Source of the DNA: Paracholeplasma brassicae
Lineage (GTDB): Bacteria; Bacillota_I; Bacilli_A; Acholeplasmatales; UBA5453
DNA: 64,000 nucleotides
NCBI RefSeq assembly: GCF_000967915.1
Contig: NC_022549.1
Coordinates: 856,366 to 920,365 of the forward strand
Direction of reading: 5' to 3'
The notes under the pieces are model-generated. The model saw only the letters and a list, made by a program, of their open reading frames with translations. It made no database searches and was not told the DNA's origin. The stretch's first letter is position 1; every line of letters starts with the position of its first letter. A program made the position numbers and the translations under genes. Positions 10,690-36,653 of the stretch are shown in pieces.

Positions 10690-10708
10690 ATTGAAGGGAG
10701 TTTTAGAA

Positions 10709-15484: not shown

Positions 15485-15498
15485 CTTAGGAGGCTATG

Positions 15499-18543: not shown

Positions 18544-21068
18544 AAAAAGCTTTATTATTAGTTGGGCTATTATTTAGTGGATTGTTTCTAGCAAGTTGCG
18601 GAAAAACACTAGGTAATATTGAATTTAGAGGCGCCGACGACGTTGCAAACATTAAATTCGGATCTGAATTCAATGTCTTAGCAGGCGTCAAAGCCATTGG
18701 AGACGACGGCACTGATTATTCTGACAAAATCACTTACATTACAAGTGCAACGGTCAGTAGCAGTCATTTATTAGATACACAAGACCCAGGTCAAGTGGTT
18801 ATCAAATATAACGTCGAAGTAAACGGTGAAACTTGGAGTCGTTTTAGATACCTCACCGTATTAGACCCTGAAGCAGTTGAAGGACAAATGCTTGTGAACA
18901 AAGATTTCTCAGCAGGCGTTGGTGGCTGGAATAGTGACTCAGTTGTCTACATTAGTGATGGGGCAGCAATGACACTAAGTGCCGTTGATGGTATTCTACA
19001 AGCCGATGTGGTTGCTGGGGCAAACTCATACACACCAAGATTTGGCCAAATGAATGTTCCATTTGAACAAGATAAAACGTATGAAGTCTCATTTAGAGCG
19101 AAATCATCTGCTGAAAAAGTGATCAACGTTAACGTTGGTGAACTACTAACCGCAGCACCTTACTTTATCGACTTCAAAGAAAAACAAACTGAAAACTTTA
19201 CACTCACAACCGAATGGCAAGAGTTCTCATTTAAGTTTACACACAAATTAGATAATAAACGTGGTGGTATCTTATTCGAACTTGGTACGGTTGGAACAAA
19301 CAAAGTTGACGCTTTAGTCGAATTTGACTGGGTTGATGTTGAGGAGTCAATTGCTGATCCAGATACTAAAGCACCTGAATTCACTGGACTTGCAGTTTCA
19401 AAATCTATCCTAGTTGGGGCTACCTTTAATCCACTTGCTGGTGTGAGCGCTTATGACCTAGTTGATGGCGATTTAACCTCAGAAATTGCAGTTGAAGTTA
19501 AAGATGCTGATGGTGTTGTTGTTACTGAAATTGACACCACGGAAGAAACAACATATACACTAACTTACACTGTAAGTGATGCTGCGTTAAACGAAGCTAG
19601 CTTTGTGATGACTCTAGAAATTGTAGGTATGCAATTTAGTGATACGAACTTAATCAAAAATGGTGACTTTAGTCAACCACTAGATGAAGTAACACCTGAA
19701 TGGTCGATGTGGTTACAAGAATGGGATGACGTTGCAGTTGCAACAGGTACAGTCAACGAAGTTGATGAAACATTTGAAATCGTTATTTCAAACCCTGGTA
19801 GTGGCGGCGAAGCTTGGACAGTACAATTCATTCAAAGAGTATCGTTAATCGAAGGTAAAACTTACCGTGTTCGCTTTGACGTGAAATCATCAGTTACAAG
19901 AGACATTGATTTTGTTATCACAGAAGATGTTACTTATTTCGAACACATTAAGGCTGTAGCTATTGATGTAACAGATGAATTTACAACATTTGAGTATATC
20001 TTTACAGCACTTAAATCAACTGCAGACACTAAGTTTGAGTTTGATTTAGGAACAACAGCAAACTATCAAGCGTCAACCTTAACGTTTGATAACATTAGCT
20101 TACACGAAGCAGTACTGGATGAAAACATCGTCAATGGTGACTTTGGTTACATTGGATGGCAAGCATTCCACAACGATTGGGAAGGTTCAGTTGCTAATAT
20201 GGCAATTGTTGATGGTGAATTTGTTTATACGTTAAATAAATATAACGACACAGGCAATTCATATTCACTACAATTAATCTATCTTGAAAAATTCATTTTA
20301 GCACCAAATACAGCATACACATTCAAGATTGATTTATACGCAACACAAGAATTAACCTTATCGCCTTTCTTCACACAAGGTGAAGGTGGCGGATGGAACA
20401 ATATTTCAACGTTAACTGCACTTGAGGTAACAGCAACAAAACAAACGTTTGTTATTCCTGTCGTATCAGGCGCAAATGGTGAGTTACCATACGAATTTAA
20501 ATTTGAGTTTGGTAATGCAATTGAAAGTTTTGAAGCAAGTGAAACAGTAAATCCAATCAAAGTGATGTTTGATAATGTCTCATTTATTGAAGATGAAACA
20601 ACTGTAGAACTTATGAAAAATGGTAATGCAGAAACCGTTGAAGATTTCTTCTATGATAACTCAGGTGCCGGTGAAGGCACAATGGTTTTAGAAAATGGTC
20701 AAGCAGTGATTGACGTCACAGCACTTGGTGGTGAAGCATACACCCCACATTTCTATCAAATTATCGATCAATTAACACCAGGCAGCTATCGCTTGAAGTT
20801 AGTTATCTCATCAAGTGTTACACGTGATTTCCGTGTGAACTTAGTGTTACCTGAGGCTGGCTGGGTATCGTTATTGCCAGAGACAAAATACGACTTTAAC
20901 GTTGAAAAAGACGTAGAAAAAGTGGTATATGTTGATTTTACTGTCGCTAATCTAGTAACTAACGTTAAACTAGAATTAGATTTCGGTACTTTAGGTGGCG
21001 AATTGGTTTCAGAAGTTGGCCAATTTGTCATTTCTGAAGTGATGGTTTATCAAAACTTAAATTCATAA
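18540..21068 (+). CDS. Surface lipoprotein with four CBM4/9-like carbohydrate-binding modules
   Basis: 842 residues. A lipoprotein signal ends in LASC (Cys20). After an Ig-like region (about 25-110), a CBM4/9-type module spans about 115-275, an Ig-like/DUF5011-type domain (VGATFNPLAGVSAYDLVDGD) about 280-370, then three more CBM4/9-like modules at about 375-535, 535-690 and 690-842. Module hallmarks recur: an opening NxDFS/NGDF, a TYxVxFxxKSS strand with SVTRD in two copies, and a closing FD(N/W)VS strand. No catalytic domain is visible. It probably holds beta-glucan at the cell surface for the anchored GH16 and binding proteins. CBM4 members are known to bind beta-1,3-glucan; specificity here is inferred from context. 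Confidence 0.85.
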   Translation: MKKALLLVGLLFSGLFLASCGKTLGNIEFRGADDVANIKFGSEFNVLAGVKAIGDDGTDYSDKITYITSATVSSSHLLDTQDPGQVVIKYNVEVNGETWSRFRYLTVLDPEAVEGQMLVNKDFSAGVGGWNSDSVVYISDGAAMTLSAVDGILQADVVAGANSYTPRFGQMNVPFEQDKTYEVSFRAKSSAEKVINVNVGELLTAAPYFIDFKEKQTENFTLTTEWQEFSFKFTHKLDNKRGGILFELGTVGTNKVDALVEFDWVDVEESIADPDTKAPEFTGLAVSKSILVGATFNPLAGVSAYDLVDGDLTSEIAVEVKDADGVVVTEIDTTEETTYTLTYTVSDAALNEASFVMTLEIVGMQFSDTNLIKNGDFSQPLDEVTPEWSMWLQEWDDVAVATGTVNEVDETFEIVISNPGSGGEAWTVQFIQRVSLIEGKTYRVRFDVKSSVTRDIDFVITEDVTYFEHIKAVAIDVTDEFTTFEYIFTALKSTADTKFEFDLGTTANYQASTLTFDNISLHEAVLDENIVNGDFGYIGWQAFHNDWEGSVANMAIVDGEFVYTLNKYNDTGNSYSLQLIYLEKFILAPNTAYTFKIDLYATQELTLSPFFTQGEGGGWNNISTLTALEVTATKQTFVIPVVSGANGELPYEFKFEFGNAIESFEASETVNPIKVMFDNVSFIEDETTVELMKNGNAETVEDFFYDNSGAGEGTMVLENGQAVIDVTALGGEAYTPHFYQIIDQLTPGSYRLKLVISSSVTRDFRVNLVLPEAGWVSLLPETKYDFNVEKDVEKVVYVDFTVANLVTNVKLELDFGTLGGELVSEVGQFVISEVMVYQNLNS

Positions 21069-21080
21069 GAGGAGGCGCAC

Positions 21081-22517
21081 ATGAAAAAAATACTTACTCT
21101 ATTGGTTGCCTTTCTATTTGTCTTTACCCTAGCTGCTTGTAAAGACGAAGGATCAACTGAAAAGAAAATCGAACTTAGATACGCTGACTGGGCAAACCAA
21201 GACATCAACAAACGAATGATTGATAAGTTTATGGAAAAATACCCACACATTCGCGTAACCATTTCAACCGACATCGCTGGTTCTGGTGATGCCTTTACTG
21301 GTAACTTAGAGATTGCAGCACAAAATGGTCTACTACCTGACGTTTTTGCAACCGATAACGTGCCAACAATTGTTAATAAAGGTCTAACTGCAGACTTAAA
21401 AACCTATTGGGATAATGACGATGACGCAAAACTCGTCTATCCAAACATTGCTGAAACGGCTGTCTACAATGGACACCGTTACGCAATTCCTTCGTTCCAA
21501 TTCTTAAAAGGTATCTTTATCAACTTAGATATTTTTGCTGAAAAGAATTTAACAACGGTTGAAGGAAAATACCGTATTGATAATAATGGTTACCCAGTAA
21601 AAGACTGGACCCATCAAGAATTTGTTGAAGTTGCAAAAGCAATTACAAACTATGACATCGTGAACACTGAAAACTTAGTCGTTGGGTTTGATACTTGGTA
21701 TGGCGCACCTGATTTCCAACAAGTTTGGCCAATGATGAATGATGCAGAGACAGGTTATGATACATGGAATGGAACTTCTTTCAACTATGAATCAGAAGCT
21801 TGGATTGAAGCAATGAAGGCTAAAGTAGAAATTGACAACTATGAAACAAACCTTGGTGTCACATCTAGATACCCAGCAGCAGACTGGGAAGCAACACCAG
21901 CACTACAAAGCTACATCATCTACACTGGTTATGGTGCGATGGATATTGAAGGTTCATGGCAATTTAACTACATTCAATTAGCTAAAGAAGAAGGTATTAA
22001 TTTAGGTTTCTGGCCATATCCAAGTGGTTCAGAAGGCTTGTTCCCACCGACCATTCTTGACTATGCAGCCGTTTCAAGCCAAACCGAACATCCGGAAGAA
22101 GCTTATTTGTTAGCTAAATGGATGACTTATGGTAGAGATGGTTGGAACGCACGTATTGAATTATACGAAGAAGATCGTCAAACCGCCATTTCAGAAGGCA
22201 AAACGCCTGCTTATTTAGATCGCTTCCCAATTGCTGATTACCCTGGCGTATGGGACAAAGTGTATACATTAGTTGATGGTATTGAAGGTATTGAATACAC
22301 ACTTGATCGTATCGAACACTCAAAACCTGACCTTGATAAATGGTTAGCTGGGTATAAAGATTTCTGGTCATGGGTGAATGACGCTGAAAATGAATATGGT
22401 TGGGCAGCGCTTCAAGTCGCTGGACCTGACGCAGTACCAACATTCGCTGCACAATGGAATGCAAAAGTAAATGAATTAGTTAGTACCCAAATTGCAAATT
22501 TAGGTAAAGACGAATAA
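21081..22517 (+). CDS. Sugar ABC transporter solute-binding lipoprotein
   Basis: 478 residues with a lipoprotein signal ending LAAC (Cys20). The mature part is a family-1 extracellular solute-binding protein: IELRYADWANQDINKRMIDKF strand-helix start, PDVFATDNVPT, and YGAMDIEGSWQ, the typical substrate-cleft segment (GxAMxxxGSW). It should bind imported gluco-oligosaccharides and pass them to a permease pair downstream. GAGGAGGC precedes its ATG, 12 bases after the CBM lipoprotein gene. A strong hairpin follows the gene (22529-22558), which may stabilise its mRNA relative to the rest of the operon. Confidence 0.92.
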   Translation: MKKILTLLVAFLFVFTLAACKDEGSTEKKIELRYADWANQDINKRMIDKFMEKYPHIRVTISTDIAGSGDAFTGNLEIAAQNGLLPDVFATDNVPTIVNKGLTADLKTYWDNDDDAKLVYPNIAETAVYNGHRYAIPSFQFLKGIFINLDIFAEKNLTTVEGKYRIDNNGYPVKDWTHQEFVEVAKAITNYDIVNTENLVVGFDTWYGAPDFQQVWPMMNDAETGYDTWNGTSFNYESEAWIEAMKAKVEIDNYETNLGVTSRYPAADWEATPALQSYIIYTGYGAMDIEGSWQFNYIQLAKEEGINLGFWPYPSGSEGLFPPTILDYAAVSSQTEHPEEAYLLAKWMTYGRDGWNARIELYEEDRQTAISEGKTPAYLDRFPIADYPGVWDKVYTLVDGIEGIEYTLDRIEHSKPDLDKWLAGYKDFWSWVNDAENEYGWAALQVAGPDAVPTFAAQWNAKVNELVSTQIANLGKDE

Positions 22518-22528
22518 TTAATAAGGTC

Positions 22529-22558
22529 ATCAAGAGGGGGATAAAAACCCCTCTTGAT
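22529..22558 (+). other. Strong intercistronic hairpin after the solute-binding protein gene
   Basis: A perfect 11-bp stem with a run of G-C pairs (22529-22539 with 22548-22558) and an 8-base loop. No T run follows, so it is not a standard terminator. Such hairpins after binding-protein genes commonly protect the upstream mRNA from 3' decay and raise binding protein over permease levels; that role here is an inference. Confidence 0.7.
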
Positions 22559-22580
22559 ACCATATCAAATGGAGGCAATT

Positions 22581-25500
22581 ATGATTAAAAAAGTCAAAAA
22601 AACAAGGTTTTATATCGCCGTACAAAGACAGTTGAAGAAAGTGAAAAACTTTTTTGTTTTATTCGGTTTAAAAAAGACCATATTATCAATAATCGTTATT
22701 AGCTTGTCTTTAGTGGTGGTGTTTTCATTTTTTAAGACAAGTGAAAATAATGATTTTTTTGACGCACGAAAGCTTGCCAACACGTATGAATCAAGCGCGA
22801 TAAATCAAGAAGAAGACAACTACACGGCTAAACTACTTGACTATCGACAATATGGCCATCAAAAGACGAACATTGTTCGTAGTTTTGACCCATTTGATAT
22901 GGTTAGTTATCAAAAAATAGATCACTCGAACGAAGAATATCAAAATCAAATCGATACGTATTATCAGTCAAATCCAGACATTAGTTCGAAAGAGCTTATT
23001 TTATTCAATAAGAAAGGTGATCGACTAGAGCTTGATTTGGAAATCACTACGGCTGGGATTTATTATCTTAGCATTGATTACACCGATGTTTCTGAAGCGG
23101 TCCAATCGAATCAAATTGCGTTAAAGATTAACGATGATTTTCCATTCTATGAAGCAAGAACGTTAATTTTAGATTCCTCATGGGTTTTTGATTCAACCGA
23201 ATTTAAACTCGATCGCTACCAAAATGAGATTCAACCGAGTTCAAGCAAAGTATTCGAATGGAATCAGGCAACGCTAAAAGATCTAAAAGGGATGCACGAT
23301 GGATTATTTGGGTTCTACCTTGAACCAGGCGATAAACTCAGTTTAGAACATGTTTCAGGAAGTTATTTAATCGGTAAAATTCACTTTGTTCAAGATGAAG
23401 TGATTGCGGACTATGATACCTATTTAGCAACACACAAAGACGCAGTACTTCAAGAAGAACGAATCGAGATATCAGCCAAGGACATTAAAGAGCGTTCGGA
23501 TGCATCTATCCGATTAAGAGCTGAACGAGACCCATCAAGTATGCATTATCATACGCAATTTTTAAAAATGAATACGATTTTTGGAGATTCTTGGCAAAAT
23601 GGTGGCCAATCAATTACTTATCAAATAGAAGTAGAAAAAAGCGGATTTTATCACGTTGGTTTTAAGTATCGTCAGTACATGATCAAAGACATGCCTGTTT
23701 TTAGAAAAATATACGTCAATGGTGAAGTACCATTTGACTTACTTTCAAGCTATGCGTTTCCATACACAACGTCGTTTATGAACCGAACACTGACAGATGA
23801 AGATGAAAAACCACTCTTAATCTATTTGAATGAAGGTACTAACGAATTGACATTAGAAGCGGTGTTGTACCCATACCGAACGACAATTGAAACCATCAAG
23901 TACGTCATGAGTCAAATTCAAGACTTGTCACTTCGTGTAAAGAAATACACCTCTGGCGGTACGGATCGTTACAGAGACTGGGACATTGAAACATATTTTC
24001 CAACCGCTAAAGAAGATGTGCTTTCTTGGGCAACAATTCTTGATGAAGCGTATAAAGATTTAAAAACACTCTCAAATACGGACGAACCTTCAGAAATTTC
24101 GAATTTGAAGGTGGCCGCTAAACGGTTGAGAGATATTGCTAAAAGCATCAACAAACTGCCATCACGCATGGTCCAATTTTCGGACGGTGACTCCTCAGTT
24201 AATCAGTTTTTAGGCGATTTGATGCAGCGTTTGATGCGTTCAAACTTAGAAATTGAACGAAGTGTTTTTTATGGTAAAACCGAAATGAAAAAACCTTATT
24301 CGAATATATTTGTAAGCACATTTGAGGGATTTAAGCGCCTAGTGCTCTCGTTTGTTAATAACCCTTACTCAACATCACGAAGAAGTAGCGATGAGTTGAT
24401 CGTTTGGGTCAATCACCCAAGACAATACATCGAAATCATGCAAATGATGATCGATTCACAATACGATGGCGATATGAAAGTAACACTCTCACAAATGCCC
24501 GATCAAAACAAATTGATTTTGGCAAACGTCAGTGGGGATGCACCAGATCTTGCCATTGGTGTGGATCACTGGATACCTTATGAGTTTGCAATCAGAGACG
24601 CTTCATTGGATTTAAGGCAATTTAAAGGTTATGAAGCGATGGTAAGTGAATTTTCTAAGGGTGCAATGATTCCATATGTGTTTGAAGATGGCGTCTATGG
24701 GGTACCAGAAACACAAAACTTTTGGGTAACGTATTATCGTACGGATATTTTAAGTTCAATTGGTATTACGGACGTTCCACAAACCTGGGATGAAATTATT
24801 GAGATATTACCCCTACTTCAAAGTTATGGTATGAATTACTTTGTGCCTTTAGCGCAATATGAAGGGCTTAAACCATTTGTTGCTACACTGCCATTTATCT
24901 ATCAATTCGGTGGGGACTTATACCAACCTGATGGCATGAGTACAGCAATCAATAGTGATCAAACACTTCAAGGGATTAAATTGATGAGTGAATTATTCAC
25001 ACTCTACAATTTACCTCAAAGAGTAGCGAACTTTTATAATCATTTTAGATATGGGTTGTTACCGATTGGTGTGAGTGATTTATCGACTTATATTTTATTA
25101 TCAACCGCGGCATCTGAATTAGACGGTCTATGGCAAATGGATTTACATCCGGGTGTCTATAATGAAGAAAAAGATGAGATCGTCAGATACTCAGCCGTTG
25201 GTGCACAAGGCTCAATGATACTAAGTTCGACCAAGCATAAAGATGAATCGTTTGATTTCCTAAAGTGGTGGATGTCTACTGATGTCCAATCCGACTTTGG
25301 CTTCTTACTACAAACAACCTATGGTAAACAGTATTTTTGGAATTCTGCGAACATCGAGGCGTTTAAGACCTCTTCAATGCCAGAAGAGTTTAAAGATGTT
25401 GTCTTAGAACAGTGGAATTATGGCATTGAAGCCTCAAGAATTCCAGGGGCGTACATGGTTGAACGTGAAATATCAAATGCGTGGAGTAGCATCGTCTATA

Positions 25501-25673
25501 ATAACGTTAATCCTAGATTAGCGCTTGATGATGCCATGCGTATATCGAATCGAGAAATCTTGTATAAGATGAGCGAATTTGGCTACGTTGAGAATAACGT
25601 AGTAATCAAAGATTACACCGTGCCAAGTATATATAATATTGACCGGTGGTTAACGGAGGTAGACCATGATTAA
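22581..25673 (+). CDS. Membrane-anchored fusion of carbohydrate-binding-like domains and a solute-binding domain
   Basis: 1030 residues from ATG 22581 with GGAGG at 22571-22575; a TTG start at 22554 would fall inside the upstream hairpin. A basic N-terminus and one transmembrane segment (about 33-51) anchor it. Residues about 90-270 and 300-460 look like two beta-sandwich (galactose-binding/CBM-like) domains, with [13 protein letters not shown] and [14 protein letters not shown] strands. A helical linker follows, then a family-1 solute-binding domain from about 600 to 970 ([45 protein letters not shown]). Most sugar-binding proteins are about 450 residues, so this is a fused, enlarged form. 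It overlaps the first permease by 8 bases. Ligand unknown, probably glucan. Confidence 0.8.
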
Positions 25674-26550
25674 ACGAATGAATCACCCAGCGTGGTTTAT
25701 CTTACCCTATTGGATACTTTTTGCCGTGTTCATTATTGTGCCAGTTGTCATTGCAATTGGGTTATCATTTACGTACTTTAACTCGATTCAAACACCAAAC
25801 TACATTGGTGTTACTAACTACATTGAGTTGATCACAGTCGATACGGTATTTATGCAAAATGTATTACCAAATACAATAAAGTTTGCTTTAATCGTTGGAC
25901 CAATTGGTTATTTACTGTCATTTTTATTGGCATGGATGTTAGCACAAATACCCGGTAAATCAAGAACAGTATTAGCCATCATTCTTTATTCACCATCGCT
26001 CACCATGGGGGTCGCAATGAGTTCAATGTGGCGAATCATATTCTCTGGTGACTCTGGCGGCTATCTTAACAGCATGCTGATTAATTGGGGGATTATACTA
26101 GAACCAATCCAGTTTCTACAATCACCTGCGTATTTAATGAACATCATGATTGTCGTTTCACTTTGGAGTTCCATGGGCGTTGGCTTTCTTGCGATGCTTG
26201 CTGGGGTTTTAAACATCGATCAAACGTTATATGAAGCAGCTTATATGGATGGCATTAAAAACCGAACACAAGAAATATTTTTTATCACAATTCCACAAAT
26301 GAAGCCTCAAATGCTCTTTGGTGCGGTGATGGCGGTGGTTGGTACATTTCAAGCCGGAGCCATTGGTGTACAATTATCAGGGTCTAACCCAACCCCGCAA
26401 TATGCTGGGCAACTGATTGTTAACCACATCGAAGATTTTGGATTCATTCGTTACTTGATGGGGTATGCGTCTGCGATTAGTGTCGTACTATTGATGATGG
26501 TATACTTATTGTCGAAGGTGACACAAAAGATTTTAGGAGAGAGGGATTAA
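25666..26550 (+). CDS. Sugar ABC transporter permease (MalF type), first pair
   Basis: 294 residues, six predicted transmembrane segments. The cytoplasmic EAA loop that contacts the ATPase reads [20 protein letters not shown] (about residue 190), typical of carbohydrate-uptake class 1 permeases. It should pair with the next gene to form the membrane channel for the binding proteins upstream. It overlaps the SBP-fusion gene by 8 bases. No ATP-binding subunit is encoded anywhere in this locus, so a shared MsmK/UgpC-type ATPase from elsewhere in the genome is expected. Confidence 0.92.
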
Positions 26551-26552
26551 CT

Positions 26553-27428
26553 ATGGCAAGTTTTCAAGGCACAAAAATAAATCCAACGTCTTTTCATAAG
26601 AGTCAACTACCGTTTTATCTATTCTTAATACCTTTAGCAATTTTAATGCTATTACCGATATTATTTATTTTTAATCATGCATTTAAACCTCAATCGGAGT
26701 TGTTTACCTTTCCACCTAGGTTTTTTGTAATTAATCCAACGTTTGATAACTTTATGGAATTATCAAGAGTAACAAGTGCTACTGGTATTCCTTTTTCAAG
26801 GTATTTAATTAACAGTATTTTTGTTACAACCATTGGCGTATTTGTTGCGATAACCATCACATCTTTATCTGCCTATGGTCTATCAAAGTTACACTTTAAA
26901 GGGAAGAAGATGTTGTTCGAAATTAATACAATCGCCTTAATGTTCGTACCAATTGCTGTTGGTATCCCTAGGTATTTGATTATAGCTAAAATGGGAATCA
27001 TTGATACCTATTTTGCACACATATTACCACTTGTTGTGATGCCTGTTGCGATGTTTTTGATTAAGCAGTTTATTGATCAAACACCAAATGAATTGATTGA
27101 GTCTGCAAAAATAGATGGTGCATCTGAAATGCAAGTGTTCTTGCACATCATTCGACCAATTATTTCGCCAGCCATTGCAACCGTAGGTATTCTGGCATTC
27201 CAAGCAATTTGGAATGACGTAGCAACCTCAACAACGTTCATTAATGACGAATCTAAACGAACGCTGGCATTTTACATGATGAGTTTAACCTCCGCACAAG
27301 GCAACACCGTCGCAGGGCAAGGCATGGCGGCTGCCGCAGGGTTATTGATGTTTGTTCCAAACTTAGTACTATTTATATTCCTTCAAAGTAAAGTCATGAA
27401 TACCATGGCACATTCGGGGATTAAATAA
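26553..27428 (+). CDS. Sugar ABC transporter permease (MalG type), first pair
   Basis: 291 residues with six hydrophobic segments. The EAA loop is ESAKIDGASEMQVFLHIIRP, the MalG-type form. NHAFKPQSELFTFPP after the first helix is a usual MalG-family opening. It lies 2 bases after its partner and overlaps the NHL-Yip1 gene by one base (TAATG), so all are probably translated together. Confidence 0.92.
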   Translation: MASFQGTKINPTSFHKSQLPFYLFLIPLAILMLLPILFIFNHAFKPQSELFTFPPRFFVINPTFDNFMELSRVTSATGIPFSRYLINSIFVTTIGVFVAITITSLSAYGLSKLHFKGKKMLFEINTIALMFVPIAVGIPRYLIIAKMGIIDTYFAHILPLVVMPVAMFLIKQFIDQTPNELIESAKIDGASEMQVFLHIIRPIISPAIATVGILAFQAIWNDVATSTTFINDESKRTLAFYMMSLTSAQGNTVAGQGMAAAAGLLMFVPNLVLFIFLQSKVMNTMAHSGIK

Positions 27429-29464
27429 TGAAAAAACTATTAATTGCGATTATATCGGTTAGTTTATTGATGTTTGTCCCATCAATGATTACCGCTAATA
27501 ACGGGTTGACCTACACAACCTTTACCTATTCAACCACACAAGGTCGTGTGGTTCCAACCCAAGATGCTTACTTACCACTGAATATCAATCGTAGTATCGA
27601 GGGTTTAACTTTAAATGAACCTGAAGATATTACCATTGATAAAGAAGATAACATTTACATTGCTGACACTAAAAACAAACGTGTCATAAAATACAGTTTG
27701 AAAACAGAAGAGATACGCGTGATTGGTGATGGTTTTCTACTTGATCCTAAAGGCGTACACGTTGGACTAGATGGTCATTTATATGTCGCTGATTTGGGTC
27801 ATAAAAAGGCATTTAAGTTTGTTTATGACAGCCTATTAGACGATTACGTGGTTGAAGTTACTTATGAAAAACCACAAGGTTCGGTATATTTTAGTGAACT
27901 GGATAAATTTGAACCAACGAAAGTTGTTACAGACAAAGGAAATAATGTCTACTTAGTTTTAGCTGGCGCGATTAACGGATTAGCTGAATTTAAAAACAAT
28001 GGTGAATTCTTTGGATTCTTTGGTGGAAATAGAATACCAAACACGTGGGATAACATCGTTAAATCACTGTTATTTGATGAAGAACAACGACGAACGTGGT
28101 TTAAGATGATTCCAAAGCCGGTATACAATACCGCAGTTGATCAAAATGGCTTAATTTTGACAACCACAAAAGACGTACCAGGGTATTTAAAACTAAATAT
28201 CGCTAATTTCGTTTACTCAAAATCGAACTGGGGATTTAACCGGTTAGAAGACTTATTTGTCGGTCCAAGTGATACAATTTTCGCTGTCAATAATGACGGT
28301 TATATTACAGAATATACGGCAGAAGGACAAGTGTTGTTTATCTTCTCTGGGAAAGACTACCTCAGTCAAAAGGGCTTATTTCAATCGCCATCGTCAATCG
28401 CGGTTGATAGTAAGAATAACATTTATGTCTTAGATAAAGGCGCTTCAAGTCTACAAGTATTTATACCGACTCAATTTGCTGATTTAGTTCATGAAGCCAT
28501 TACACTTTACCAACAAGGTAGGTATCAAGAGTCCAAAGGACCGTGGCAAGAAGTCTTAAAGATGAATGCACTCTTTGATTTGGCTAATAAAGGCATAGGA
28601 GACGCGTTCTTTGCAGAAGGCAATTACGAAACAGCGATGCAATACTATGAGATTAGTCGTCACAGTGAAGGTTATTCGAATGCGTACTGGGAAGTTAGAA
28701 ACGAAGCACTCTTAGATAGCGCAAGTTGGATCATTTATGTGATCATCGCTTTAATCGTATTAGCTATTGTCAACCGTTTTATTCCAGTTTATCGAGTCGT
28801 GTTTAAACCAATTAAAGATGGGCATAAATATTTAAAACGCTTTAAACTATATAATGAGTTGATGTTTGGTTTTTACCTGCTTAGACACCCACAAGACGGA
28901 TATTATGGCATCAAACGAGAGAATAAAACAAGTAATTTCTCCGCATTCATTTACTTGATGCTCTTTTTCCTAAGTTATATATTTTATGGGTATAATACGA
29001 ACTTCCAATTCAACAATAAGATTCCATCAGAGATTGATTTCCTTCAAGAAATCATTACGGTCTTTGTTCCGTTTTTCTTGTTTGTAATTGGTAATTATTT
29101 AGTTTGTAGTATCAGAGATGGTGAAGGAAAATTAAGAGATGTCTTTCAATCATCAGCCTACACACTATTACCTTTTATCATCGCATTACCTATTTTAAGT
29201 ATTATGTCACATGGACTTACAGGCAATGAAGCATTCATTTATAGTTCACTATTCAATCTTGCAGTAATTGTGTTTGTAATCTACATGATTGTAATGGTTA
29301 AAGAGATTCATTTTTACGAAATGAAACAAACCCTAGGTAATATTTTTATTTCAATATTTACAGGGTTAATGATTTTACTTATGGTTGGAATCGTTTATAT
29401 TTTATTAAACGAAATCGTTATGTTGTTTGTTGATATCTTTAAGGAGGTGACAAGTCGTGGTTAA
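27428..29464 (+). CDS. NHL beta-propeller - TPR - Yip1-type membrane protein
   Basis: 678 residues. A signal-peptide-like segment (1-24) leads to NHL-type repeats (about 55-340), for example EPEDITIDKEDNIYIADTKN, GVHVGLDGHLYVADLGH and SPSSIAVDSKNNIYVLDKG. A TPR-like helical region (about 350-425: EAITLYQQGRYQES, GDAFFAEGNYETAMQYY) follows, then a transmembrane helix (about 430-448) and a five-helix Yip1-type domain (about 480-678). The propeller should face outside. Function is unknown. Its place between two permease pairs, coupled at both ends (1- and 8-base overlaps), points to a transport or assembly accessory. I infer no enzymatic activity. Confidence 0.78.
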   Translation: MKKLLIAIISVSLLMFVPSMITANNGLTYTTFTYSTTQGRVVPTQDAYLPLNINRSIEGLTLNEPEDITIDKEDNIYIADTKNKRVIKYSLKTEEIRVIGDGFLLDPKGVHVGLDGHLYVADLGHKKAFKFVYDSLLDDYVVEVTYEKPQGSVYFSELDKFEPTKVVTDKGNNVYLVLAGAINGLAEFKNNGEFFGFFGGNRIPNTWDNIVKSLLFDEEQRRTWFKMIPKPVYNTAVDQNGLILTTTKDVPGYLKLNIANFVYSKSNWGFNRLEDLFVGPSDTIFAVNNDGYITEYTAEGQVLFIFSGKDYLSQKGLFQSPSSIAVDSKNNIYVLDKGASSLQVFIPTQFADLVHEAITLYQQGRYQESKGPWQEVLKMNALFDLANKGIGDAFFAEGNYETAMQYYEISRHSEGYSNAYWEVRNEALLDSASWIIYVIIALIVLAIVNRFIPVYRVVFKPIKDGHKYLKRFKLYNELMFGFYLLRHPQDGYYGIKRENKTSNFSAFIYLMLFFLSYIFYGYNTNFQFNNKIPSEIDFLQEIITVFVPFFLFVIGNYLVCSIRDGEGKLRDVFQSSAYTLLPFIIALPILSIMSHGLTGNEAFIYSSLFNLAVIVFVIYMIVMVKEIHFYEMKQTLGNIFISIFTGLMILLMVGIVYILLNEIVMLFVDIFKEVTSRG

Positions 29465-31829
29465 ACTAATTAAGTACTTGATTGTTGTGGTAATTACCGT
29501 TACGTTTTCTTTTGTGATTGTCAATGCAAGTCAATCAAAAAATACGGAAGGACTTGTCATCGATTTAAATCAAAACTTTCCATACATCGATAAAATGTTA
29601 TTAGAAAGTTCGAGATTCACTCAAAAAGATGACTTTGATCCAACACTGGTCAATGATTATCATCAATATTACCAAGTTGACTACTCAGAAGAAGAGAAAG
29701 AAGACATGGGTTATGAGTTGGTCCTTGATAACGATAAATTGTCTGTTTACTTAGAGATAAATAGTTTCTCTGTTTTAATTCACAATAAAGAAACGAACTA
29801 CTATTACAGTTCAAGAAGTGAATTTCAATCGTCTGACGGACGTTCAGAAGGTAATACACGTATTCGAGCAAGACATGCCTCAGGTATATGGGTCGAATAC
29901 GTAGCAAGTCAAAACCCACAACGAAATCTAGCAATACCTTATGCGCTATTAGAGCTTGCGGATGCTGAGTTTGCTACAAACGGTATCATAAATGAAACGA
30001 ATTCAAGAACATCGGTTTATGAATTGGTACCTGAAACGTATCGCAAGAATAAAGTAGAGTTAAAAAAACGAAATCAAACGACTAATCAATTAGTGATAGA
30101 TGTGAATCTTAAGAGTATAGGATTAAGGTTTGATGTATCCTTAGAAATCACTGAAGATGGTCTATTTCATGTCTTTTTAGATCAAGAGAGCATTGTTGAA
30201 AGCAATGACGCGTATAAAGCAACCGCGATCTATTTATTTCCAAACATGGGGGCAGTTAGAGATACTAAAGCACCGGGTTATATGGTCATTCCTGATGGTG
30301 TTGGCGCACTTGTTAGATTTAAGGAACGTCATGAAACAACGCTCCAATCACGTTTTTATAATTCGGATTACGGTGTTTCCTCAACGACTTTTTCAAATTT
30401 GTCAGTACCTCTTTATGGGATCATTCATGAAGTGGGTCAAAATGGCATTTATACGTTTTTATCTGAGGGTGCAGAACAAGCCATATTTTATGCAAACTTA
30501 ACGGATAACAACAATTACAATCGTGCTTATACGAAGTATGTCTTAAGAGACATTTACTGGCAAGTAATTGATAGACAAAATAACGGTCAAGATGCTGTTT
30601 TAAGTCAACGAAGTGATTCTAATTTTAAAATACATTTTGGATTTTTAGGCAGTGATGCAAACTATGTTGGTATTGCAAGTAGATATCAATCCTATCTAGT
30701 TGATAAAGGAATTTTAACAAAAAAAGCGCCTGAGTCAGATATCGATTTGCATTTGTCCTTTGTAATGAGTGATTTAGAACCATCGTTTTTATGGAGTAAA
30801 CGTATTTCAATGACCAAAACAAACGATGTGTTAAGAATCTATGAAGAATTAAAAGAACAAGGTATTACCAATCAATCCATCAAGTTATTGGGTTGGAGTA
30901 AAGACGGCAATACCAATCGTTTGGACCGGATGAATTTTAACGAACGTGATAAGAATTACGATAAATTAAGCGAGCAAATTAATGCGGATGGCAATCAAGT
31001 CTTATTAAACAATGATTACGTTTATGCCGCAGAAAGTTCCAAACGCGTGAGTTTGATTAGCGATGTCACAAGAAATATTGCAAAAACACGAGTCACATTC
31101 GAAATCAATAGCTTGTCGACACGAAGAATGTTGTACTTTCTTGATCCAGCCAAAACAAGAGACAAACTACTCAGTGATTTATCTTTCTATGAGGATCATC
31201 ACTATGGGTTATCTGCTGATTCGATTGGTCAAAGCTTAAACTCATTCTATCGAAAGAGTTATCACGAGCGTATGGATACAAAAGCGTATTATCAAGAAGC
31301 ACTTGAGGCTTATGAATTTGTTTCCTTAGTCAACCCAAACGATTATTTGTGGCAATATACGGATCAATATTTAGATATGCCTGTCTTAAATGCACAGTAT
31401 CGTTATTATACGGATTTAATCCCTTTAATTCCGATTATATTGTCAGGGCATGTCGCAATGTATACCTCTTATTTAAACTTTAATGCCATTGGGGAAGACC
31501 GGTTACTGATGATGGTCGATTACAATCTTTACCCAAACTATGTGTTAACGAGTGAAGATACATTTAAAATGCGATATACTGCCTCTAATGAACTTTACAC
31601 AACCCATTATGATTCCTACAAAGCTGAAATCGTTCGTACGTACGGTTTTGTTAATGAGGCGTTAAAACACGTTAGCGGAAAGAAAATTGTTTCTCGTGAA
31701 ATGATAGAAACAGGTGTTTCATTAGTTACTTATGAAAATGGGGTATCGATTTTAATTAACTACACCTCAAACGATGTTGATTATCAATCAATCACCGTCG
31801 AAAAGAAGAGTTATGAGGTGATCTTATGA
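29457..31829 (+). CDS. DUF5696-type secreted or anchored protein
   Basis: 790 residues, GTG start at 29457 with AAGGAGGTGAC upstream inside the preceding gene. Residues about 5-25 form a signal/anchor segment. The rest is extracellular: a beta-sandwich-like N-terminal half (PGYMVIPDGVGALVRF, YVGIASRYQSYLVDKGIL), a middle region of alternating helices and strands (IKLLGWSKDGN, VLLNNDYVYAA, MYTSYLNFNAIGEDRLL) and a final beta-domain (VTYENGVSILINYTS). This order resembles large glycoside hydrolases with a barrel between beta-sandwiches, but I cannot name catalytic residues. Family name DUF5696 is from recognition of the overall type, not a search. It overlaps the next permease by 4 bases. Confidence 0.68.
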   Translation: MVKLIKYLIVVVITVTFSFVIVNASQSKNTEGLVIDLNQNFPYIDKMLLESSRFTQKDDFDPTLVNDYHQYYQVDYSEEEKEDMGYELVLDNDKLSVYLEINSFSVLIHNKETNYYYSSRSEFQSSDGRSEGNTRIRARHASGIWVEYVASQNPQRNLAIPYALLELADAEFATNGIINETNSRTSVYELVPETYRKNKVELKKRNQTTNQLVIDVNLKSIGLRFDVSLEITEDGLFHVFLDQESIVESNDAYKATAIYLFPNMGAVRDTKAPGYMVIPDGVGALVRFKERHETTLQSRFYNSDYGVSSTTFSNLSVPLYGIIHEVGQNGIYTFLSEGAEQAIFYANLTDNNNYNRAYTKYVLRDIYWQVIDRQNNGQDAVLSQRSDSNFKIHFGFLGSDANYVGIASRYQSYLVDKGILTKKAPESDIDLHLSFVMSDLEPSFLWSKRISMTKTNDVLRIYEELKEQGITNQSIKLLGWSKDGNTNRLDRMNFNERDKNYDKLSEQINADGNQVLLNNDYVYAAESSKRVSLISDVTRNIAKTRVTFEINSLSTRRMLYFLDPAKTRDKLLSDLSFYEDHHYGLSADSIGQSLNSFYRKSYHERMDTKAYYQEALEAYEFVSLVNPNDYLWQYTDQYLDMPVLNAQYRYYTDLIPLIPIILSGHVAMYTSYLNFNAIGEDRLLMMVDYNLYPNYVLTSEDTFKMRYTASNELYTTHYDSYKAEIVRTYGFVNEALKHVSGKKIVSREMIETGVSLVTYENGVSILINYTSNDVDYQSITVEKKSYEVIL

Positions 31830-32902
31830 CAAAAGTAATGACGAAAGTAAAAGGCGCAATCTTAGCACCTTTTAAAAAAAGCGTTGAAGTGGTCGCTCGA
31901 TTTTCAGGCAAACACATCAGTCCAATCTTTGAAAAATTGGCGTACCTACTGACTCATAATTTTATCTACCGAAATAAAGAATCAAACGTTGTGCTTTTTA
32001 GTATAATCAAAATCAAGGTAACAAGAAGAAGACGCGAACATTTTTATGGTTATATGTTTATCTCGCTGTGGATTATCGGGTTTTTGATCTTCACTTTGTA
32101 TCCAATGTTTAATTCACTATACCTTAGCTTTACTGAAAGTTATCCTCATTTAACCAGAGGGATGTCAACCACATTTGTTGGGGTAAGAAACTACATTAAT
32201 ATCATAAGGAGTCAAAACTTAATCCCTGAATTTCAAAAATATATTGGTAAAATGCTTTTGTCTATTCCATTGATTATTGTTTTTTCAATTATGATTTCGA
32301 TGTTAATCAATCAACCAATGAAACTAAAAGGCATTTGGCGTACGATTTTCTTTATGCCAGTCATCATTTCATCGGGTCCAGTCATTTTGGAGCTGACCCA
32401 ACAAGACGCAGTAAGCTTACCATCAATTAGTGAAAGTGGTGCCATTGGTTTTATCGTCAACAATCTGGGATCTTGGATAGCTAATCCACTAGAGGCATTA
32501 TTTAATTCACTCTTACTTATCTTGTGGTATGCCGGGGTTCCGATCTTGATATTTCTTGCGGGCCTTCAAAAAATTGATACCTCAATTTATGAGGCTGCAT
32601 CCATTGATGGGGCATCGCCTTGGGATAATTTTTGGAAAATTACCTTGCCATCAATCAAACCGTTAATTAGTGTGGCGATCATTTACGTGGTGGTATCGAT
32701 GAGTCTTTATGTCGAACCAGGTGGTGTATTAGATCAAGCAAAAATGCACATGCTAAATGGTGGGTCTGATTCAGCGCTTTACTTTGGGTATGGTTATGCC
32801 GCAGCAATCTCATGGGTTTATTTCATATTGATGCTTGCATTAATGGGTATATTTATCGGTGTTACATCAATTAGACGTAAGAAGGTGAAACGATGGAACT
32901 AA
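31826..32902 (+). CDS. Sugar ABC transporter permease (MalF type), second pair, with long N-terminal extension
   Basis: 358 residues. The permease proper begins near residue 75 (REHFYGYMFISLWIIGFLIF), so about 70 residues of basic, cytoplasmic extension precede the first helix, against about 10-20 in the first pair. The EAA loop is YEAASIDGASPWDNFWKITL. It overlaps the DUF5696-type gene by 4 bases and its partner permease by 10. It is quite different from the first pair in sequence, so the locus carries two distinct channels rather than a recent duplication. Confidence 0.9.
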   Translation: MTKVMTKVKGAILAPFKKSVEVVARFSGKHISPIFEKLAYLLTHNFIYRNKESNVVLFSIIKIKVTRRRREHFYGYMFISLWIIGFLIFTLYPMFNSLYLSFTESYPHLTRGMSTTFVGVRNYINIIRSQNLIPEFQKYIGKMLLSIPLIIVFSIMISMLINQPMKLKGIWRTIFFMPVIISSGPVILELTQQDAVSLPSISESGAIGFIVNNLGSWIANPLEALFNSLLLILWYAGVPILIFLAGLQKIDTSIYEAASIDGASPWDNFWKITLPSIKPLISVAIIYVVVSMSLYVEPGGVLDQAKMHMLNGGSDSALYFGYGYAAAISWVYFILMLALMGIFIGVTSIRRKKVKRWN

Positions 32903-33834
32903 ATAAATCACTATTTTCAATACAAAAAAAGCAAAAAGCGAAAAAAGTACTTTTTGGGATGCACACAACTGATGGGTTGATATATCGTTTTGTCTTGATT
33001 ACGTTATTGATCAGTTTTTCTTATATTTATCTCTATCCAGTCTTATTTATGCTGGTTAATAGTTTAAAATCGGTTGATGACTTATTGAACCCAGGGGTAA
33101 GATGGGTACCAACCACTTTAGAATTTAACAATTATCAAACGGCATTTAAAGTACTTGATATGCCTTCGATTGTTTTTAGTTCAACGTGGTATGTTTTAAA
33201 AGTAAGTTTGATTACGACCATTTCCTCAGCTCTGATTGGTTATGGGTTTGCGATGTATGAATTTCCGTTTAAAAAATTATTCTTGTTTTTGATGCTTGCG
33301 ACGTTTATTTTGCCGCCACAAGTATTGATGGTGTCAAACATGACGGTCTTTCGCTTGTTAGGCATTATATCGTCTTCTAAAACCATGACTTTACCAGCAT
33401 TATTTGGACAAGGATTAAACCAATCAATCTTTATTTTGATATATTATCAATTTTTTAAGACGATTCCTCAAGTTTTAATGGAATCCGCTGAAATTGATGG
33501 TGCAAGTCAATTAAAGATATTCTTTAAAATTGCGTTGCCATCTGCGATACCATCCATTGTAATTGTTTTTCTATTTAGCTTTGTTTGGTATTGGAATGAA
33601 ACGTTTATGACCGCACTTTACGTTGGAGGACAAGTAACGTTGCCTCTAAAATTACAAGCATTCGTTGATAGTTATAGCACCTTGTTTCAAGAAGGTACGA
33701 TAGGCGCTAGACTCAACGAAGCAATAAAATTAGCTGGTACGATGCTCACCGTATTACCACTCTTAGTGCTCTATTTTTTCGCACAAAAGAACTTCACAGA
33801 GAGTATTGATCGTACGGGTATTACAGGAGAGTAA
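32893..33834 (+). CDS. Sugar ABC transporter permease (MalG type), second pair
   Basis: 313 residues with six hydrophobic segments. The EAA loop MESAEIDGASQLKIFFKIAL is present, and YLYPVLFMLVNSLKSVDDLL is the usual start of a MalG-type permease. It partners the preceding gene. No ATPase gene follows; the next gene is a GH16 lipoprotein. Confidence 0.92.
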   Translation: MELNKSLFSIQKKQKAKKVLFGMHTTDGLIYRFVLITLLISFSYIYLYPVLFMLVNSLKSVDDLLNPGVRWVPTTLEFNNYQTAFKVLDMPSIVFSSTWYVLKVSLITTISSALIGYGFAMYEFPFKKLFLFLMLATFILPPQVLMVSNMTVFRLLGIISSSKTMTLPALFGQGLNQSIFILIYYQFFKTIPQVLMESAEIDGASQLKIFFKIALPSAIPSIVIVFLFSFVWYWNETFMTALYVGGQVTLPLKLQAFVDSYSTLFQEGTIGARLNEAIKLAGTMLTVLPLLVLYFFAQKNFTESIDRTGITGE

Positions 33835-33838
33835 AACA

Positions 33839-34960
33839 ATGAAAAAAATATCAATTATGATGATTTTCACACTCGCGATATTATTATCTGCTTGTAGTGA
33901 AAAAATATCACTCGAAAAATTAAAACCAGTCGATGATTGTAACGAACAAAGACTAGATGGTGGATGGGTATGCACTTGGGCAGATGAATTTGAAGGTGAT
34001 ACACTCGATTTAGAAAAGTGGAATTATGAAATTGATGGTGGTGGCGGTGGAAACAATGAACTTCAATATTACACCAATAAAAATACCTCAGTTGCTAATT
34101 CAGTATTAACCATTACGGCAAAAAAAGAAGAATACATGGGACGTTCTTATACCTCATCACGTATTACAACAAAATATAAAGGCGATTTTACTTACGGTCG
34201 TTTTATTATTCGTGCTAAAAATCCAGTTGGACGCGGTACTTGGCCGGCTGTTTGGATGATGCCAACCATGAACTCTTATGGTATTTGGCCGAAAAGTGGT
34301 GAAATTGACATTATGGAATACGTAGGTTATGATCCAACACGTGTTCATGGTACGATTCACACCGAACGATTTAATCACGGCCTTGGCACACAACTTGGCG
34401 GTTCTGTGACGCTACCAACGGCAAATCAAGAATTTCACGATTATGAGATTATTTGGAAACCAGGTACCATCACATGGTTTGTCGATGGGGATCAATATTA
34501 CGAAGTCAATTACACACCACAATTCACAAGTGATTCAAAATATAATGAAGCATTTCCGTTTGATAAACCTTTCTTCTTGATCCTAAACTTAGCGATTGGT
34601 GGAAACTGGGGTGGCGTTCAAGGCGTCGATGATTCAATCTTCCCTGCGGCTTTTGAAATCGACTTTGTGAGGGTCTATCAGTTAGACTACGCATCCGTTG
34701 ATAAAAAAGTACCTGAAAAGGTCGCAAATATTAACAAGGCAGAAGTGGCGAACACCATTCACTGGCAACGTGCATTTGATGATTATGATATCGAAAAATA
34801 CGCGATTTATGTTGATGGAAAGTTTAATGGATACTCCAATCTTAATCAATACACACTGGTTGGATTAGAACCAAATAAATCTTATAACATCACAGTCGAA
34901 GCCATAGATTTTGTCGGTAGAACCTCTAAAATAAGTGAGCCATTTGTTTATAAAACCTAA
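33839..34960 (+). CDS. Lipid-anchored GH16 beta-glucanase with C-terminal FN3-like domain
   Basis: 373 residues from ATG 33839, with CAGGAGAG upstream; an earlier in-frame start at 33806 would spoil the signal peptide. The signal ends LLSAC (Cys19), so it is a lipoprotein held on the outer face of the membrane. The GH16 core has GRGTWPAVWMMP, catalytic GEIDIMEYVG (Glu155, Asp157, Glu160) and LNLAIGGNWGG. A C-terminal fibronectin-III-like region (about 290-373, ending VEAIDFVGRTSKISEPF) follows. It is the extracellular endo-glucanase of the locus, producing oligosaccharides for the binding proteins. It is the last gene before the interrupted terminator. Confidence 0.92.
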   Translation: MKKISIMMIFTLAILLSACSEKISLEKLKPVDDCNEQRLDGGWVCTWADEFEGDTLDLEKWNYEIDGGGGGNNELQYYTNKNTSVANSVLTITAKKEEYMGRSYTSSRITTKYKGDFTYGRFIIRAKNPVGRGTWPAVWMMPTMNSYGIWPKSGEIDIMEYVGYDPTRVHGTIHTERFNHGLGTQLGGSVTLPTANQEFHDYEIIWKPGTITWFVDGDQYYEVNYTPQFTSDSKYNEAFPFDKPFFLILNLAIGGNWGGVQGVDDSIFPAAFEIDFVRVYQLDYASVDKKVPEKVANINKAEVANTIHWQRAFDDYDIEKYAIYVDGKFNGYSNLNQYTLVGLEPNKSYNITVEAIDFVGRTSKISEPFVYKT

Positions 34961-35011: not shown

Positions 35012-35050
35012 TGAACCGCCCCCTGTCAAGTAGACAGTGGAAATAATTAA
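35012..35050 (+). repeat. Left terminal inverted repeat of the IS element
   Basis: It starts TGAACCGCCCC, with AAGTAGACA at positions 17-25 and AAATAATTAAA following. It pairs imperfectly with the right end (36665-36703). Confidence 0.78.
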
Positions 35051-35877
35051 ATAACTGATTCAATTTTTAAGGCTTGATTCCGAAATTCCATCGGAGTTAA
35101 GCCTTTTAGTTTTTCTTGGTACCTTTGTTTATTATAAAACTGGATGTATTGATCAATCGCTACTTTGAGTTGATTGATGTCGTGAAACTGGGTTAAATAG
35201 TACATTTCTGATTTAAGTGTACCCCAAAAACTCTCCATCGGTCCATTATCAATACACCTACCAACTCTAGACATACTGACTGTCATGCTTCTAGAAGTGA
35301 GCTTCTTTTGAAACACTTTATTCGTATATTGATACCCGCGGTCACTGTGTACCATCGGTTTGGCTTCCGGATTAAGTTGGAATGCTTTCTCGAAGGTTTC
35401 ATTTACCAGTTGGTTATTATTCGATATACCCATTTTGTAACTGATAATACTGGTATCACACAGATCGATGATGGCACTTAAGTATAACTTAGTATTCGAT
35501 CCAATCACCTTGAACTCGGTAACGTCTGTTAACCATTTCTCATTGGGATTATTAGCCTCAAATTGTCTGTTTAAGACATTCTCTGCTGTGATCTCTGGTC
35601 TTACTTTAATATACCCCTTACGCACTCTACGGATAACCGACGATACACCTAATTTCTTCATCAATCGTCTGATGCGTTTTACATTATAGTTCGTTTGATT
35701 CCGCTTATTAATCCATAAAGTCATCCGTCTATAGCCTAAGATACCTTTAAACTCATCATGATATTCAAGAATCAATTGAGATAACTCATGATTAATCTTT
35801 TCTTCATTTGTTTCTTCATGTTTTAACCACTTATAATAGCTGCTACGAACAATCAAAAGGATTTCACATAACACCAA
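35047..35877 (-). CDS. IS3-family transposase OrfB (DDE integrase domain)
   Basis: 276 residues from its first ATG; the frame is open further upstream (IRQEAKYKTIKGLHEAK) back to the frameshift site in orfA, as expected when it is made mainly as an OrfAB fusion. The helix-turn-helix-like leader RSSYYKWLK precedes the rve-type catalytic core: NEKWLTDVTEF (first Asp), MVHSDRGYQYTN (second Asp), and GPMESFWGTLKSE (Glu). All three acidic residues are present. The QRYQEKLKGLTPMEFR ending is the standard IS150-group C-terminus. Confidence 0.93.
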   Translation of the reverse strand: MVLCEILLIVRSSYYKWLKHEETNEEKINHELSQLILEYHDEFKGILGYRRMTLWINKRNQTNYNVKRIRRLMKKLGVSSVIRRVRKGYIKVRPEITAENVLNRQFEANNPNEKWLTDVTEFKVIGSNTKLYLSAIIDLCDTSIISYKMGISNNNQLVNETFEKAFQLNPEAKPMVHSDRGYQYTNKVFQKKLTSRSMTVSMSRVGRCIDNGPMESFWGTLKSEMYYLTQFHDINQLKVAIDQYIQFYNKQRYQEKLKGLTPMEFRNQALKIESVI

Positions 35878-35909
35878 AATAGGATAGTTTTTTGCCTCAT
35901 GAAGCCCTT

Positions 35910-36653
35910 TTATCGTTTTGTATTTGGCTTCTTGGCGGATCTTGCTAAAATATCCCTCCTTTCGATCTCCTGGAATTTTTTTATGACTTCAGCCTCCATC
36001 TCCAGACGTTCATTCTTCCGTCTTAGAAGCTCAACTTCACGTTTTAGTTTCTCAATTTCACTTAGATTCTCTACAGGCTTTCTCTTGCCTCGTTCGTCCT
36101 TTAAACCAGCTTCACCTTCTACGTTGTATTTTCTGACCCAGTTATACACTTGTGAGTAGGCTGTCTCAAACTTCTCCGCTGCGAGTTTATATTCAAAGTT
36201 ATGTTCAATCGTCCATTTCACTATATCTAACTTTTCTTCATAACTCACTTTTCTTGATTTCGCCATATAAACATACCCCTTTGGATCATACGCTTTGATC
36301 TCGTTATGTCTATTATACTTGGAAACCCAACTCTTAATCATTGAGTCTGATGTTATTTGATATTGTTTGGCCAGTTCTGCGTATGATCCTTTGCCATCGT
36401 GGTAAGCTTTAATCACCTTTAATTTGAATGATTTCATATAACTTTGGTTTCTTGGTTTATCCTCAAATGCCATACTTCCCATCGATTCATAGTTCCTGAC
36501 CCATTGTTTAACACTGGATACGTCACATCCTAATTCACATGCGATTTCTAACATTGACTTGATTCCTGTTTGATATGCTTTGATTGCTTTGATTTTTGTT
36601 TCTTTACTGAATCTTGGTGTTCTTGACATAAGAAAAATCCCCTCTCTGTACAC
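35910..36653 (-). CDS. IS3-family transposase OrfA with three helix-turn-helix units and a leucine zipper
   Basis: 247 residues, longer than the roughly 170-residue OrfA of IS150. Three similar helix-turn-helix units are visible (around KETKIKAIKAYQTG, SFKLKVIKAYHDG and EKLDIVKWTIEHN, each ending in a VKxWVxxY / VYNWVRKY recognition helix). A leucine-zipper coiled coil (EIEKLKREVELLRRKNERLE) follows for OrfA/OrfAB dimerisation. It binds the element's ends and partners OrfB. Confidence 0.9.
   Translation of the reverse strand: MYREGIFLMSRTPRFSKETKIKAIKAYQTGIKSMLEIACELGCDVSSVKQWVRNYESMGSMAFEDKPRNQSYMKSFKLKVIKAYHDGKGSYAELAKQYQITSDSMIKSWVSKYNRHNEIKAYDPKGYVYMAKSRKVSYEEKLDIVKWTIEHNFEYKLAAEKFETAYSQVYNWVRKYNVEGEAGLKDERGKRKPVENLSEIEKLKREVELLRRKNERLEMEAEVIKKFQEIERRDILARSAKKPNTKR
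35976..35982 (-). other. Programmed -1 frameshift site (A7) joining OrfA to OrfB
   Basis: On the minus strand the codons ATA-AAA-AAA of orfA contain seven consecutive A in the A-AAA-AAA phase. A -1 slip there enters a frame that stays open to orfB. This is the usual way IS3-family elements make the OrfAB transposase. Confidence 0.8.

Follow-up and report, generated by a model that had tools for sequence, protein, structure and literature searches.

An NHL propeller-TPR-Yip1 protein encoded in a conserved two-permease-pair cassette, a candidate subunit of an oligosaccharide importer

The usual conception of an ABC sugar importer comprises a single binding protein, a pair of permeases, and an ATPase dimer. 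In the SusCD utilisomes of Bacteroidota, surface glycan-binding proteins and a transporter are encoded together as a substrate-tuned module. Binding of Rab or trafficking partners is a eukaryotic property of the Yip1 family (PF04893), and we can point to no bacterial Yip1 domain whose role is established. In A. laidlawii, beta-1,3-glucan phosphorylases, GH16, and ABC components were described in two adjacent clusters, and, in the available part of that article, the authors remarked on the absence of solute-binding protein (SBP) and ATPase genes from these clusters (PMC6484121, 2019). The available part of a Paenibacillus JDR-2 transcriptome paper deals with conventional single-pair transporters (PMC4765114). 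A literature search on Yip1 with ABC permeases, or on NHL repeats with permeases in Paenibacillus, found nothing on the system described here. In this study, we analysed a stretch of 64,000 nucleotides from Paracholeplasma brassicae (hereafter, the window) that contains a gene for an NHL-TPR-Yip1 protein. At slightly over even odds (about 0.52), this protein is a dedicated extracytoplasmic and membrane subunit of a two-permease-pair CUT1 oligosaccharide importer, which here would take up beta-1,3-glucan oligosaccharides.

The NHL-TPR-Yip1 gene and its operon

The gene (27428-29464, plus strand, ATG start) was delimited by ORF, Pfam, AlphaFold2, and Foldseek analyses and encodes 678 aa. Its NCBI annotation is 'YIP1 family protein' and that of the next gene is 'DUF5696 domain-containing protein', with nothing further. 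A sequence-only reading had described a propeller and TPR joined to a Yip1 membrane domain; Pfam, AlphaFold2, and Foldseek bore this out, and both the propeller and the Yip1 domain were found. The signal peptide region covers residues 1-25 (27428-27502; hydropathy, low pLDDT at residues 17-25). It is followed on the same strand by a six-bladed NHL propeller, predicted to be extracellular (residues about 31-347; 27518-28468; Pfam, model, and Foldseek), TPR helices (residues 349-424; 28472-28699; Pfam, alignment, and model), a TM helix 3' of the TPR (residues about 426-459; 28703-28804; model and hydropathy), and the Yip1 domain PF04893 (residues 483-652; 28874-29383; Pfam). The Pfam scores were 64.6 bits for NHL (cut-off 20), 46.3 bits for Yip1 (curated cut-off 28.6), and 24.9 bits for TPR_16, the last being under its cut-off of 32.7. 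The AlphaFold2 model, obtained with 59 aligned sequences, had a mean pLDDT of 88.1 and consisted of a six-bladed propeller and a TPR-like helical block, followed by a single long helix and a membrane domain made of helices. Foldseek grouped the propeller with the NHL domains of TRIM71, TRIM2, PknD, and Pizza6. Three residues of the TPR block (W373, N380, and A386) were invariant across the 59 sequences. The Yip1 family is characterised by five membrane helices and a cytosolic N-terminus, an arrangement that the helical hydrophobic segments of the Yip1 part, placed after one preceding TM by hydropathy and the model, may fit. The protein is thus predicted to carry an outward-facing head, the propeller-TPR with its signal peptide, on a membrane anchor formed by the TM helix and the Yip1 domain. 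It resembles Yip1-domain proteins in its above-cut-off score and helical membrane domain, and differs from them in its partner, a secreted propeller-TPR head that is either part of the same chain or the product of a neighbouring gene, and in its place within a transport operon.

The operon reads SBPw-SBP2-PA-PB-NHL/Yip1-DUF5696-PC-PD-GH16 on the plus strand. SBPw (21081-22517; ORF and homologues) is a probable lipoprotein SBP that gave no Pfam match at E 0.1; its homologues lie beside many cassettes. SBP2 (22554-25673), which the sequence-only reading had left out, is as constant a member of the cassette as NHL-Yip1. This giant binding protein of ~1000 aa was delineated by Pfam, hydropathy, and profile matching. 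It has an N-terminal TM anchor by hydropathy, a CBM35-like region whose stretches resemble the CBM35 part of CITase in a profile match, and a C-terminal solute-binding domain (SBP_bac_1, 55.4 bits in Pfam) whose closest solved relative is Lin1841 (profile match, 1e-34). The first permease pair comprises UgpA-like PA (25666-26550) and UgpE-like PB (26553-27428, EAA motif intact). Downstream of NHL-Yip1 lie the DUF5696 gene (29457-31829; Pfam, profile, and model) and the second pair, PC (31826-32902) and PD (32893-33834), both with intact EAA motifs. A probable lipoprotein resembling GH16 endo-beta-glucanases (33806-34960) is the final gene of the run. The sequence-only reading had placed NHL-Yip1 between two permease pairs and called it translationally coupled; the neighbours are as claimed, and the genes overlap, with 1 base shared by PB and NHL-Yip1, 8 by NHL-Yip1 and DUF5696, 4 by DUF5696 and PC, and 10 by PC and PD. 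Directly 3' of the GH16 gene, two ORFs on the minus strand (35047-36653) resemble an IS3/IS150-type transposase pair, so an insertion sequence seems to flank the operon.

Upstream, on the plus strand, lie genes for a GH94-superfamily phosphorylase homologue (10691-13213), a GH16-like protein beside the phosphorylases that has no signal peptide and is apparently cytosolic (13598-14323; by inspection), a LacI-type regulator (14323-15336; by inspection of the sequence only), a GH161 beta-1,3-glucan phosphorylase homologue (15496-18543; 9qqk GH161A, E 9e-201), and a CBM4_9/Ig-like probable surface lipoprotein (18540-21068; Pfam and hydropathy). Together, these genes point to the use of beta-1,3-glucan (laminarin). 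The window thus shares beta-1,3-glucan phosphorylases, GH16, and ABC components with the A. laidlawii clusters; the latter were described as two, and the available part of the article mentions neither a propeller/Yip1 nor a DUF5696 gene (PMC6484121).

Cassette order and the number of importers

A locus scan over GTDB-species genomes yielded 80 loci in Acholeplasmatales, Haloplasma, Clostridia, Butyrivibrio, Fictibacillus, Amphibacillus, Cohnella, and Paenibacillus, a spread over many Gram-positive lineages and wall-less relatives of theirs. The scan set, with the window and short loci included, gave 93 loci holding NHL-Yip1, the ORFs of which were profile-scanned. The sequence-only reading had made its proposal depend on the gene order being conserved elsewhere, and SBP2-PA-PB-NHL/Yip1-DUF5696-PC-PD ran unbroken in 61/93 loci. 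Most of the remaining loci were cut by contig or locus ends. In addition, PB was shifted to the far end of the cassette in one Butyrivibrio locus (L044), and in ten Paenibacillus loci enzyme genes such as GH95, GH2, GH42, and GH106 were inserted mid-cassette, leaving the two halves apart. The SBP2 gene of the split loci was found upstream at a distance of about 21-27 kb, with no change of strand, and PA and mostly PB adjoined it; in L113, one of the four split loci read, PA but not PB showed through the filter. A locus-limited scan had implied that the Paenibacillus GH2/GH42/GH106 loci can do without SBP2-PA-PB; this was rejected after a whole-genome search found SBP2 upstream, past the enzyme genes. 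NHL-Yip1, DUF5696, PC, and PD were contiguous wherever the sequence extends that far.

Among 392 genomes of the phylum, strong matches to DUF5696 (48), NHL-Yip1 (47), and SBP2 (46) formed nested sets, each lying within the one before; the two genomes that drop out have a fragmentary DUF5696 gene (G042) and a gene cut by the end of its contig (G371). SBP2 was absent from just one genome with NHL-Yip1, where the gene is at a contig end. Full SBP2 and NHL-Yip1 genes occurred in a 1:1 ratio in the seven Paenibacillus genomes tested, even where the two genes stand about 21-27 kb apart. SBP2, PA, PB, NHL-TPR with Yip1, DUF5696, PC, and PD are inherited as one unit. In Mycoplasmatota strain zrk7 (L052), SBP2, NHL-Yip1, and DUF5696 are in pieces, by decay or assembly error. 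Three similar-looking lipoproteins of ~240 aa stand in a row after PD in three Paenibacillus GH2/GH42/GH106 loci (L061, L067, and L083, about 16250-18500).

The permeases carry the EAA coupling loop by pattern in 68/68 (PA), 69/69 (PB), 76/86 (PC), and 74/76 (PD) sequences, and the two PC exceptions looked at still have a recognisable loop. In PA, the loop is one residue longer in all 68 sequences (the window and 67 homologues), with the pattern EA[AG]xxDGxxNRxQE...P. In one Paenibacillus clade, 18 loci have a UgpC-type ATPase gene immediately before SBP2, as do the four split loci of that clade that were examined and a P. cellulosilyticus replicon. Three OB_MalK matches, two of them over the cut-off, are present in the window's genome, all away from the cassette as unlinked candidates. 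With CUT1 importers (MalEFGK, MsmEFGK, and the Listeria Lin1841 beta-1,2-glucan system), the cassette shares the family 1 SBP domain, paired EAA permeases, and a UgpC/MalK-type ATPase that is often unlinked. It differs from them in its two permease pairs, the extra residue in the PA loop, a TM-tethered SBP of ~1000 aa with CBM35-like regions, and two additional constant proteins, NHL-TPR-Yip1 and DUF5696.

The chief rival to a single importer is that SBP2-PA-PB and SBP-PC-PD are two independent importers for the same glycan, merely co-transcribed, with NHL-Yip1 and DUF5696 serving PC-PD only. The conserved order could reflect co-regulation of two such importers. The displaced PB in Butyrivibrio, the separated halves in the ten Paenibacillus loci, and the ATPase genes located elsewhere in the window's genome also count against one importer, and the second SBP beside many cassettes fits two, as does the contiguity of NHL-Yip1, DUF5696, PC, and PD when SBP2-PA-PB can be at least 20 kb off. 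Independent systems, however, should be lost separately, whereas SBP2 is present in 46/47 NHL-Yip1 genomes and copy numbers are equal. In addition, a single linked ATPase gene precedes both permease pairs, which argues for a common machine. On balance, we regard two importers as unlikely, and prefer one importer with two permease pairs.

The DUF5696 protein

The DUF5696 protein scored 419.7 bits in Pfam and has an N-terminal hydrophobic anchor or signal by hydropathy. No mention of DUF5696 was found in the open-access literature, to which the search was confined. The profile matched NagBb (GH129) weakly (1e-10). The structural model (pLDDT 91.3) matched GH129 and then GH101 and GH36 structures in Foldseek (E 9e-29 to 5opq; TMt 0.67-0.73 for GH129 entries).

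These matches would suit an active exo-glycosidase, held by NHL-Yip1 at the mouth of the channel and trimming the glycan there. This idea can coexist with several other readings and is weighed separately. The best Foldseek matches are indeed GH129 enzymes at a TMt of about 0.7, and the Asp of an SD[YF] motif (window residue 597) occurs in about 61% of DUF5696 homologues; in the window protein, however, this Asp is Phe. D486 of ZgGH129 (mutated D486N in 8rzk), the catalytic nucleophile in this family, aligns by sequence alignment only to DUF5696 G591, a column with Gly in 47/57 sequences and D/E in none. NagBb (5wzn) and its quadruple mutant (5wzq) differ at three His and one Asp, none of which is conserved in DUF5696 (HMMER alignment). 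Because the nucleophile position is never acidic and the residues at the NagBb mutant sites are unconserved, a non-catalytic role is likelier than hydrolysis, and we judge an active enzyme improbable. On the alignments and the model, DUF5696 is probably a non-catalytic glycan binder with a GH129/GH101 fold, at least in the window protein. It shares the overall fold of GH129/GH101 glycosidases (NagBb, ZgGH129, and EngBF) and the weak NagBb profile match, but it differs from them in having no conserved nucleophile or metal-site residues, in its membrane anchor, and in its tie to a transport operon.

Cassette copies, gene fusion, and the proposed importer

The host genome (1.88 Mb, about 99% complete) holds four Yip1 and four DUF5696 matches, all within four cassettes of the same order. 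The propeller and Yip1 are fused in the window and in L005, and are encoded by two adjacent genes in L006 and L007. The L005 cassette adjoins a GH94 gene and a gene whose relatives in L041 and L050 match PF10091, the family that includes GH144, which suggests beta-1,2-glucan as the substrate. A gene for a DUF624 (YesL-like) membrane protein follows one host cassette (L007:10252-10902).

Enzyme neighbours of the cassettes include GH16, GH94, PF10091, GH35/GH42, GH26, GH5, GH2, GH95, and GH106, and the substrate types assigned by neighbours are laminarin, probable beta-1,2-glucan, mannan, and galactoside/rhamnoside. In P. cellulosilyticus, the cassette lies on a replicon of 509 kb and has genes for SBPs and for three LLM flavin oxidoreductases, one of them of the NtaA/DmoA type, behind it (L116:17405-22869), which suggests a substrate other than plain glycan. 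The transporter core stays constant while the neighbouring enzymes vary; thus, the cassette is not bound to one substrate. A laminarin-specific role was ruled out by this wide variation.

In a quick NHL-TPR tree, which has long branches and a root for drawing only, a fused clade is set against a mostly split clade in which propeller-TPR and Yip1 are adjacent separate genes. The tree requires at least three changes, and its simplest reading has two fusions, one in the large clade and another in L084/L088, plus a single break in Haploplasma modicum (L036:11300-11660), where an in-frame stop lies between the TM helix and Yip1 of an otherwise fused gene. On that reading, the fusion arose independently at least twice. 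Repeated fusion of neighbouring genes is classic evidence for physical association. The separate genes in one major clade rule out the fusion itself as the innovation. The sequence-only reading had taken the protein for an accessory devoted to sugar transport, which might gather binding proteins around the channel; such gathering is the more conjectural part. A devotion to sugar transport agrees with the near-invariant position, the 1:1 copy number with SBP2 in the seven Paenibacillus genomes, the nested presence, and the glycan-degrading neighbours; the fused form is not essential, being split in one clade. Given the GH129-like fold of DUF5696, with its catalytic acid missing, the system is better seen as a capture machine of several parts than as permeases with an accessory at their side.

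Alternatively, NHL-TPR-Yip1 could help the permeases or the large TM-tethered binding proteins to mature, as a factor for folding, insertion, or assembly, and stay outside the working importer. A propeller combined with TPR typically mediates protein-protein contacts and the gene is cassette-bound at one copy per cassette, as such a factor might be, but a generic factor could serve several cassettes and the host genome keeps four diverged copies, one for each; we give this little credence. A surface sensor, in which the propeller reads glycan occupancy and Yip1 signals to the cytosolic face for ATPase recruitment or gene expression, would draw on the predicted outer head and cytosolic loop of one chain and on the two-component or LacI regulators near several loci, but is very improbable because Pfam found no signalling domain in the cytosolic segment, head and Yip1 are different chains in the split clade, and the regulator type varies.

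For the preferred single importer, we infer the assembly of the parts, glycan binding, and transport alongside the observed conservation, coupling motifs, and predicted topology. The GH16 enzyme would free laminari-oligosaccharides, SBP2 and the lipoprotein SBP would capture them, and the GH129-like DUF5696 barrel would hold the chain without cutting it. The propeller-TPR may dock the soluble heads of the SBPs and DUF5696, while Yip1 may contact the permeases in the membrane and so join both pairs in one assembly. Sugar would then be delivered to two channels, both driven by a shared UgpC/MsmX-type ATPase, and degraded inside the cell by the GH161 and GH94-type phosphorylases. A stronger version is offered tentatively: all parts may form one obligate supercomplex, with two permease pairs bridged by propeller-TPR-Yip1, a pseudo-glycosidase, a giant tethered SBP, and cooperating channels, as a single-membrane counterpart of a glycan utilisome. 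The likeness to SusCD utilisomes would lie in how the system works only, through co-encoded surface glycan binders and a transporter. The cassette differs in its single-membrane setting with ABC permeases and in having no TonB-dependent outer-membrane transporter; none with a surface lipoprotein lid was found among the ten cassette-region proteins scanned.

The cassette may bear on the missing-SBP puzzle of the A. laidlawii beta-glucan clusters, as set out in the available part of that article (PMC6484121). A gene set with two pairs of permeases and three constant, large proteins of the cell surface has stayed intact in Mycoplasmatota, Bacilli, and Clostridia, where it serves unrelated substrates. 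If its products form one machine, two uncharacterised parts, DUF5696 and a bacterial Yip1 domain, would gain functions, and the machine would be a new importer architecture that would account for the capture of long glycans by bacteria with a single membrane.
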